Assembly: GCF_900167905.1 (NCBI RefSeq)
Contig: NZ_FUYZ01000012.1
Span: 1-64,000, forward strand
Source of the DNA: Soonwooa buanensis
GTDB taxonomy: Bacteria; Bacteroidota; Bacteroidia; Flavobacteriales; Weeksellaceae
Direction of reading: 5' to 3'
Length of the DNA: 64,000 bases
The notes beneath the pieces were generated by a model, which saw only the letters and a list, made by a program, of their open reading frames with translations, made no database searches and was not told where the DNA came from. This document shows positions 20,879 to 23,063 of the stretch, in pieces. The translations under genes and the position numbers were made by a program. Positions within the stretch are counted from its first letter, which is position 1; each line of letters begins with the position of its first letter.

Positions 20879-21473
20879 TTATTAACAATTTAAGTTTGTC
20901 AAAAGTAATGATTTCAAATGAAAACTTAACGGTTTACAAATGTAATTTCATTAAACATTTACACATGTCATTTTGTCTGTTGATTTTAATGTCTATTACA
21001 CTTAATATAATACAAAAATGTAATTACATGAAAGTCAGCATTTAATTAAATTTACATAAAGTTAATTTATAAACTTACTTTAAGTGTTTAAATTAAGATT
21101 TATCCCCAATTAAGGACGAATTTACCAAACAAAGACAATGTGTATAATGTATTGTTAATTAAAACTATGTACAATTGTAAATTATTGAAATCTAATTGAA
21201 AATGTCTTAAGTCGACTTTAAAACTGTCCTAACTTAATGAAAATGAATCATTTAAATTAATATATAATCATTTCTAGATATTATCTAATGTCATTATTTA
21301 ATAATGTAAACAGTAATTATCATAACCTACAATTCACATAAAAGAACTTACTAACATTATAAATAGTTGATTACCAGCTATATTTACTTTGGTTTACATT
21401 TGTATATATACTTTATTTACTTCTGTTAATTTGATTGCTTTTACATTTCTAAAACATTTATTACATTTGTAAC
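20879..21473. promoter_or_regulatory. 595-bp operator-rich region with six TTACAnnTGTAA-like sites
   Basis: No gene is found. The pattern TTACAnnTGTAA occurs exactly at 20934-20945 and 21461-21472. One-mismatch copies lie at 20959-20970, 21169-21180, 21394-21405 and 21441-21452, and the everted palindrome ATGTAATTACAT lies at 21018-21029. The last exact site ends one base before the XRE start codon, and the first lies 56 bp upstream of the M14 start. Some sites also contain TACATTTG, which fits the -7 motif, so operator and promoter may overlap. Confidence 0.6.
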
Positions 21474-21977
21474 ATGGAAATAAATGAGAGAATCTCCATC
21501 ATTATGGAGCATTTTAATATAACGCCTTCAGAATTTGCAGAGAAAGTTGATGTGCAACGTTCAAGTATTTCGCACATCACTTCGGGACGTAACAAACCAT
21601 CATTGGAATTTATCACTAAAGTCAAAAACGCCTTCCCAGACATAGAATGGGACTGGTTGATCAATAGTAATGGACCTATGATAAAACCAAAAATCGAAAT
21701 TGTTGAGGAAAAACCCGAAGCCAAGAAGCTTCCCCTACCCGACCTCTTCTCTATTATAGAAGACGAAAGTTTTGGTCAAGAAAATTCTGAAAACAAATTG
21801 CCCGAAAAGACTAATCGTCCAGAACCGATTGTTTCTGCTCCTATTAAAGAAGAAAAAAAAATAATCGATTCTCAGCCATTAGAGAATTTTCCAATTCCGC
21901 AAGGAAAAACGACAAAAAAAGTAAAGCGCGTTATTCTTTTTTTTGAAGACGGAACTTTTGAAGCTTTTGAAAATTAA
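21474..21977 (+). CDS. XRE-family helix-turn-helix regulator
   Basis: The 167-residue protein has an N-terminal lambda-repressor-type helix-turn-helix (about 1-65). Its recognition region FAEKVDVQRSSISHITSGRNKPS is followed by a long Glu/Pro/Lys-rich linker. A short conserved-looking tail VKRVILFFEDGTFEAFEN ends the chain. The start codon abuts a TTACATTTGTAA palindrome, suggesting autoregulation and possibly a leaderless transcript. It is followed 36 bp later by a lipoprotein hydrolase gene. Target genes are unknown. Confidence 0.85.
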   Translation: MEINERISIIMEHFNITPSEFAEKVDVQRSSISHITSGRNKPSLEFITKVKNAFPDIEWDWLINSNGPMIKPKIEIVEEKPEAKKLPLPDLFSIIEDESFGQENSENKLPEKTNRPEPIVSAPIKEEKKIIDSQPLENFPIPQGKTTKKVKRVILFFEDGTFEAFEN

Positions 21978-22013: not shown

Positions 22014-23063
22014 ATGAAAAACTCATTTTATTTTCTCATCATCCTCTTCGCATTAAACTCGTGCGGCGCTATACATAATACTCCAAAATCGCAAACGCCC
22101 AATAAAATCGAAAGCTCTAGCATGGCTTATTCTTTCGTGGATCAAAACGGAAATTTCTATCCAGATAATTGGAGTTCGCAATATGGAAAACCTCCTAAAA
22201 ATGCGAAAAGCAAGGAGTTTTCTTTAAAAAAATTAGCTAGTGAAAAAGGTAAAGAAATAGAACTTTCGGCTTCTGAAAAAACCAAAATCGCACAAGTCGC
22301 CAATAGTGGAAAAAACAAGAATCGAATTTTCGTTTTTGTCCATGGTTTTAATGCAAGTTCGGATGAAGTTACGAAAAGTTATAAGGCGATAAAATCGCAA
22401 CTTAATACAACAAACAAAGATCAAATTATCAATTTCTACTGGGACGGATTGGTGGCACAGTCGATGTTTGGAGCAGGTAAAATTTGGTTTAACGCCACTA
22501 ATAACAGTCAAATGGCTGGAGAATTTGGACTTAGACGACTTCTTAATTCTTATCAAAACAAAGACATTTATATTATTTCGCACAGTCGTGGTGCATCGGT
22601 TGTCCTTAGTTCTTTAAGCAATCCGCCATTTAGCAAACGCGAAATCGAGGATCGAAAAGACGACCACAATGTTGACATTGACAACGATTCTAAAATATTG
22701 CAAGAGAAAAATAATAGTATCTACTGTATCATGTTGGCGCCAGCGATTGGGACGAAAGATTTCAAATCGGAAGATCTAAAATCGGGCGATGACAGCTACC
22801 GCGAATTCAGTCCGCAACTGAAAAAAGTGCATATTACAATTAATAATACCGATCCGACTTTGAAGAAGTTTTTAGGCTTTTTATCGGACAAACTAAAACC
22901 GACTGATTTGGGCTATAAATCTGATGCTTTTGATGCTTTGAAGGAACATTATGATTTCTTAGAGAAAACGGATTTTAGCGGTCAAAAATCACATAATTTT
23001 GATGTTTATATTCGGAATCCGAAGTTCAAAACTATTTTAAAAGAATTCAATATTGCGAAATAA
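22014..23063 (+). CDS. Lipoprotein with alpha/beta-hydrolase-like (DUF900-type) fold
   Basis: A 349-residue lipoprotein (signal MKNSFYFLIILFALNSCG). Residues about 105-190 show a hydrolase-like strand and loop, IFVFVHGFNASSDE, then the nucleophile elbow IISHSRGAS with Ser of the SHSRG turn. A short catalytic Asp or His region is less clear. This resembles DUF900/esterase-like proteins of the envelope. The start is ATG 22014; an upstream in-frame TTG at 21981 would mask the lipobox. Same strand and likely same transcript as the XRE gene. Confidence 0.65.
   Translation: MKNSFYFLIILFALNSCGAIHNTPKSQTPNKIESSSMAYSFVDQNGNFYPDNWSSQYGKPPKNAKSKEFSLKKLASEKGKEIELSASEKTKIAQVANSGKNKNRIFVFVHGFNASSDEVTKSYKAIKSQLNTTNKDQIINFYWDGLVAQSMFGAGKIWFNATNNSQMAGEFGLRRLLNSYQNKDIYIISHSRGASVVLSSLSNPPFSKREIEDRKDDHNVDIDNDSKILQEKNNSIYCIMLAPAIGTKDFKSEDLKSGDDSYREFSPQLKKVHITINNTDPTLKKFLGFLSDKLKPTDLGYKSDAFDALKEHYDFLEKTDFSGQKSHNFDVYIRNPKFKTILKEFNIAK

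Follow-up and report, generated by a model that had tools for sequence, protein, structure and literature searches.

The palindrome TTACAnnTGTAA, which recurs in front of an XRE-family regulator gene in the window (the whole 64,000-nucleotide stretch of Soonwooa buanensis DNA analysed here), is best explained as the operator of that regulator, which would govern a small regulon made up of its own gene, a divergent M14 gene and, in many genera, an adjacent TerC/Alx metal-homeostasis gene; as a whole, this explanation is considered likely. Binding of the sites by the XRE protein appears highly likely, and the protein very probably controls itself and its neighbour genes. Comparison across genomes showed that the candidate operator accompanies the XRE gene across the class, is present at promoters of the neighbouring genes, and is mostly missing at M14 genes in genomes without an XRE match. 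A preliminary description of this DNA had read the sites as the operator array of the XRE protein and knew of no described target genes; the targets predicted here are the regulator's own gene and the M14 gene, joined in many genera by TerC/Alx. An autoregulated XRE protein with an operator array is a known kind of system, and the regulon itself appears to be new. Literature searches of open papers, with subscription papers largely outside their reach, returned no paper on an XRE/M14/TerC regulon, and to our knowledge few Bacteroidia regulators outside the two-component, ECF-sigma and polysaccharide systems have both a predicted operator and a predicted regulon. A near-universal flavobacterial regulator gains in this way a predicted operator, predicted targets and a testable geometry.

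The features of the locus are listed in window coordinates; palindromic sites are given without strand.

21474..21977, + strand: XRE/HTH_3 regulator, 167 aa (HTH_3, 32 bits against a cut-off of 23)
21461..21472, no strand: predicted core XRE operator TTACATTTGTAA, separated from the ATG by a single base; exact, kept in the sister species, and at -13/-14 in many orthologues
21462..21469, + strand: predicted -7 box TACATTTG inside the core operator; predicted start at 21474, the first base of the XRE start codon (box rule from excerpts of PMC9723704)
21441..21452, no strand: predicted XRE operator TTACATTTCTAA; one mismatch, position kept in the sister species
21417..21428, no strand: predicted XRE operator TTACTTCTGTTA; two mismatches, one mismatch at the equivalent place in the sister species
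21394..21405, no strand: predicted XRE operator TTACATTTGTAT; one mismatch, exact at the equivalent place in the sister species
20934..20945, no strand: predicted M14 operator TTACAAATGTAA, preceding the M14 -7 box by 38 bp; exact, kept in the sister species, equivalent place in other M14 promoters
20900..20907, - strand: predicted M14 -7 box TACTTTTG; predicted start 20895 (box rule from excerpts of PMC9723704)
19772..20878, - strand: divergent M14 zinc carboxypeptidase-like gene (Peptidase_M14, 34.9 bits against 21.6)
20959..20970, no strand: near-match TTACACATGTCA, probably no operator; present, not kept in the sister species
21018..21029, no strand: everted palindrome ATGTAATTACAT, probably incidental; single, not kept in the sister species
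21169..21180, no strand: near-match GTACAATTGTAA, probably incidental or degenerate; present, degraded in the sister species

A local cluster of sites between the M14 and XRE genes

A motif scan of the window placed six TTACAnnTGTAA sites between the M14 and XRE genes, two exact (20934 and 21461) and four with one mismatch (20959, 21169, 21394 and 21441), and a single everted palindrome at 21018, all at the coordinates given in the preliminary description. One site abuts the XRE start codon (21461) and another precedes the divergent M14 gene (20934), as had also been described; the GC content, put earlier at about 24%, is in fact 20.8% in the 595-bp intergenic region 20879..21473. In 5000 dinucleotide shuffles of this gap, the mean number of exact copies was 0.015, which bears out the earlier expectation of far fewer than one, and two copies were reached in 2 of the 5000; with up to one mismatch allowed, the mean was 0.25 and the maximum 4, and no shuffle reached six. 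Over the 64-kb window, 7 near-matches were found against 4.45 expected, a number that 18 of 100 shuffles reached and that is unremarkable; the packing of six of these seven into 540 bp is not chance. Nor is the exact motif enriched across the S. buanensis genome as a whole (3.33 Mb), in which 7 exact sites, two of them in this gap, were counted against 14 for a reversed control pattern. Because the exact motif is rare genome-wide, the sites represent a local accumulation rather than an element spread through the genome.

Alignment of the gap with that of the sister species, another member of the genus, showed that the places of 20934, 21394, 21417, 21441 and 21461 are kept, and that 20959, 21018 and 21169 are not; the latter three are rejected as functional because they are not conserved. 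The operator array proposed earlier is consequently retained for 20934, 21394, 21441 and 21461 and given up for the remaining three places. Absent from the preliminary description was the XRE-proximal site at 21417, which carries two mismatches here and whose counterpart in the sister species, TTACTTCTGTAA, carries one. The working array would then consist of four predicted sites before XRE, at -80, -57, -33 and -13 from its ATG, and one before M14, at -67 from its ATG. The AT-rich gap was also considered as a replication origin or skew switch, a candidate that was rejected because a 2-kb skew profile has no switch at the site, and Rfam and tRNA scans returned nothing at the locus. Directly downstream of XRE, at 22014-23063, lies a gene for a DUF900 alpha/beta hydrolase with a lipoprotein-like start, which was not found at the equivalent place in the sister species.

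Conservation of the array at XRE orthologues

A match to the XRE protein was found in 80 of 99 relatives (one match in 79 of them and two in one), giving 81 places, of which 70 were fetched and oriented and the 150 bp upstream of each scanned. Exact sites were present in 48 of these 70 promoters, with 59 copies against 0.21 expected from dinucleotide shuffles, and sites with at most one mismatch in 65, with 157 copies against 4.3 expected; 5 of the 70 promoters were without a site. A similar picture was obtained from 80 loci fetched by name, including Chryseobacterium, Epilithonimonas, Kaistella, Halpernia, Riemerella, Lutibacter and Christiangramia: 76 carried a site, exact in 58 (182 sites against 5.55 expected), and 4 carried none. 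The two sets overlap in organisms and the loci are related, so that these counts are not independent. Of 31 places outside the order, 25 were read; a site was present in 21 of these promoters, exact in 12 (38 copies against 1.13 expected). Conservation upstream of orthologues, whose absence would have counted against the array reading, therefore extends through the order (48/70 exact) and into the class (12/25 exact). The XRE gene is not universal across the class, since only 35 of 149 genomes had a match at E 1e-8.

Closely spaced pairs of sites were sought in 59 genomes. The pattern matched in 14 genomes, and 20 of its 21 rows lay upstream of an XRE gene, the sole row elsewhere being in genome G075; the reversed control matched once. 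The S. buanensis genome gave no match to the strict close-pair pattern or to a similar one, because its proximal sites carry mismatches. On the frequency of the site in other intergenic regions, as judged from genome-wide pattern counts and the pair scan, dense pairs are nearly confined to XRE genes, which speaks for the array, and the exact motif, at 7 against 14 below its reversed control, speaks against the earlier reading.

Among 144 neighbouring pairs of operators at XRE (at least 12 bp apart), spacings of 13, 22-24, 33-35 and 46-47 bp occurred in 8, 38, 54 and 12 pairs, and the best-fitting period among those tried was 11 (R 0.73), as expected if neighbouring dimers keep helical phase. 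The XRE protein would bind as a dimer, with neighbouring dimers in a preferred phase on the helix. A second motif, TTTACTTTAA, was present in 16 of 149 XRE upstream regions against 3.3 expected, mostly at -64 to -87; it occurs in the window at 21074-21085 with one mismatch, where it is not above chance.

The XRE protein as the probable binder

Alignments of the XRE protein revealed an N-terminal HTH, a long variable linker with short conserved motifs, and a conserved C-terminal tail, KRVILFFEDGTFEAFEN, which is a candidate sensing or partner-binding part. The protein scores above the curated cut-off for HTH_3 (PF01381), and residues R6, A22, H34, R39, N40, P42, S43 and L44 of the HTH are invariant in the alignment, which would fit an unchanged operator. 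The nearest solved chains by sequence were small HTH proteins with weak scores. The scores fell short of the HigA-type antitoxin family (20.8 bits against a cut-off of 47.7) and of the RstR phage repressor family (26.8 bits against 80); among Pfam matches up to E 0.01 no S24 peptidase domain was found, and PF03965, the family of BlaI, MecI and CopY, was likewise not among the Pfam matches.

The last of these families offers a different binder, since the known core of the operators of BlaI/MecI/CopY-type winged-helix repressors, TACAnnTGTA, is identical to that of the sites described here. The CopR-CopY operator is given as TACANNTGTA in the excerpted text of PMC7253601, and this ten-base palindrome is present exactly at 20934 and 21461; the S. 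buanensis genome also contains three PF03965 genes, two of them with TACATTTGTA just upstream. At both of these BlaI-type sites, however, the outer T...A is missing on one flank or both, and the array tracks the XRE gene class-wide. Moreover, no PF03965 match was found in five genomes that carry an exact XRE site (G003, G008, G017, G066 and G068), and a BlaI/CopY protein is rejected on this ground as the general binder. The system also differs from BlaI/MecI/CopY in its HTH_3 regulator, in the longer TTACAnnTGTAA form of the site, and in its arrays in place of one or two sites. Ownership of the sites by such a repressor is accordingly regarded as improbable, and the XRE protein is retained as the probable binder.

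M14 and TerC/Alx genes as predicted targets

Wide flanks were examined at 41 loci. An M14 gene lay upstream on the opposite strand in 39 of them, and a TerC/Alx-like gene was present in 18, as a rule between M14 and XRE. The site was found in 27 of the 39 M14 promoters (22 exact; 1.31 sites expected) and in 14 of the 18 TerC promoters (6 exact; 0.46 expected). At the named loci, 52 of 64 M14 promoters and 13 of 15 TerC promoters carried it, the TerC count leaving out one row, that of locus L208, as a slicing artefact. M14 promoters without a site numbered 12 of 39 in the wide-flank set and 12 of 64 in the named set.

Of 19 genomes without an XRE match, nine had an M14 match, and in eight of the nine no site was present in the 150 bp before M14, whereas the M14 site was present in 3 of 3 XRE-bearing control genomes. 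The exception among the nine was G006, a 79% complete genome, in which M14 carries a one-mismatch site. The eight site-less genomes represent about four lineages, and the test is weaker for two genomes of one genus (G022 and G044), where M14 follows the upstream gene within 2 bp and may lack a separate promoter. M14 is also retained without an XRE match in genomes of 0.3-0.6 Mb (G074, G085 and G094; loci L280, L282 and L283), which hints that the peptidase matters on its own.

The M14 protein contains the motifs HGNE, NRD, LHD and FEGG and, because these are present, may be an active metallopeptidase; by eye, no signal peptide was seen. Like the MpaA-type murein tripeptide amidases, it belongs to the M14 fold family and is apparently cytoplasmic, but the resemblance is weak, its score against the MpaA NCBIfam equivalog (21.9 bits) lying far below the curated cut-off of 157. 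The linked membrane protein, represented by the TerC/Alx protein of locus L174, reaches 349.6 bits against a cut-off of 246.4 for TIGR03718. TerC proteins have been linked in abstracts to manganese and to exoenzyme metalation. Unlike known TerC/Alx proteins, the one considered here is predicted to stand under an XRE regulator; in the S. buanensis genome the nearest TerC-like gene is on another contig, and no site was found in the 3.8 kb read there. An uncharacterised, cytoplasmic-looking M14 peptidase is in this way tied to a TerC/Alx protein.

Promoter geometry and predicted mode of control

In Flavobacterium psychrophilum, the -7 box TAnnTTTG spans -12 to -5 of the start, and 5.5% of mapped mRNAs are leaderless, according to excerpts of PMC9723704. 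Among 121 XRE promoters, such a box starts one base inside an operator 167 times, and in 30 of the 121 a box starts at -12 or -13 from the ATG. The box at 21462 in the window places the predicted start on the first base of the XRE start codon. The XRE mRNA of S. buanensis is accordingly predicted to be leaderless, and the 30 promoters lead to the same prediction for part of the group. The operator sits on the predicted core promoter of XRE itself, the place expected of an autorepressor, and this is conserved. Because the core operator at this promoter contains the -7 box, bound XRE would shut off its own gene, and self-repression is judged likely.

The overlap of site and box raises the question of whether -7 boxes in AT-rich promoters give rise to the palindrome as a by-product, since the site includes TACATTTG and is nearly a mirror image of it. 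Such an origin is very improbable: only 7 exact copies occur in the 3.33-Mb genome, the 59 exact copies in 70 XRE promoters far exceed the 0.21 obtained from dinucleotide shuffles, and the site stands apart from the -7 box at M14 and TerC.

Distances at M14 and TerC were taken from promoters with a measurable separate -7 box, after de-duplication at 85% identity. In 45 of 59 M14 promoters the operator starts 36-39 bp ahead of this box, as it does in 15 of 24 TerC promoters (34-41 bp in 22 of the 24); the modal distance of 37 bp (11 of 24 at TerC) is shared by the two unrelated promoters. The operator is thereby centred about -43 to -44 from the predicted start, which is close to the place of lambda CI and of class II activators. 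The preliminary description had taken the -7 box within several sites to mean that binding would block RNA polymerase; this suits the XRE promoter, whose proximal site contains the box, and is doubtful at M14 and TerC, because the operator there precedes a separate -7 box by about 37 bp, an activator-like place. The M14 geometry would fit activation at least as well as a block of RNA polymerase.

XRE repressors commonly act by occlusion, and all targets, M14 and TerC included, may simply be repressed, with an operator at -49 to -38 hindering RNA polymerase at the -33 region. The 10 of 94 de-duplicated M14 promoters in which the -7 box lies only inside the operator, as at XRE, look like repression. 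Occlusion requires no fixed phase, however, and at M14 the operator-to-box distance varies little and has a mode that recurs in the unrelated TerC promoter. Simple repression of all targets is thus a serious possibility with somewhat less than an even chance, and activation of M14 and TerC by XRE is modestly favoured. A TTTG at -33 was found in 27 of 85 XRE, 1 of 42 M14, 0 of 13 TerC and 22 of 234 other candidate promoters; its scarcity at M14 and TerC decides nothing, because the other candidate promoters are also low, and the lack of a -33 element was dropped as proof of activation. In many M14 promoters a recurrent GTTTA-like element precedes the operator by about 9-12 bp; in the window it is weak (about 20954-20947, - strand).

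Lambda CI-type autoregulators resemble this system in their XRE/HTH_3-type HTH, in several operators upstream of their own gene, in a site on their own promoter core, and in sites near -42 of a promoter. In contrast to lambda CI, no S24 peptidase domain was found in the XRE protein described here, no phage context was seen around its gene, and the predicted target genes are cellular. We tentatively suggest, as a reading with less than an even chance, an ancient, chromosomal, lambda-CI-like circuit of the Bacteroidia. In it the regulator would use one operator both to cap its own -7 box and so repress itself, in some lineages with a leaderless mRNA that begins at the ATG, and to activate M14 and TerC/Alx from a fixed place near -43, self-control being class-wide and the targets lineage-specific. 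If this were true, a cytoplasmic peptidase would be linked with metal handling.

Exact sites away from XRE

The other exact sites of the S. buanensis genome form no second array; one precedes an Rrf2-type gene, another adjoins an S24-type repressor on what looks like a mobile element, and three are in or between unrelated genes. The first, an exact TTACAAATGTAA outside the window at C16:72877-72888 (L034 3001-3012), is about 17 bp upstream of the Rrf2-type regulator gene, which adjoins a copper nitrite reductase-like gene (names assigned by eye). In genome G022, which has no XRE match, an exact site (L078 1501) precedes a different Rrf2-type gene, also named by eye, by about 15 bp. The genus to which G022 and G044 belong (g22) has no XRE match, yet these genomes contain 4 and 9 exact TTACATTTGTAA sites; no XRE, M14 or TerC homologue was near the exact sites in the loci read, which were 12 of the 13. 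The site on the mobile-looking element, an exact TTACAAGTGTAA at C21:702-713 (L035 702-713), lies beside genes that by eye are phage-type repressor-like and Mu-like transposase-like.
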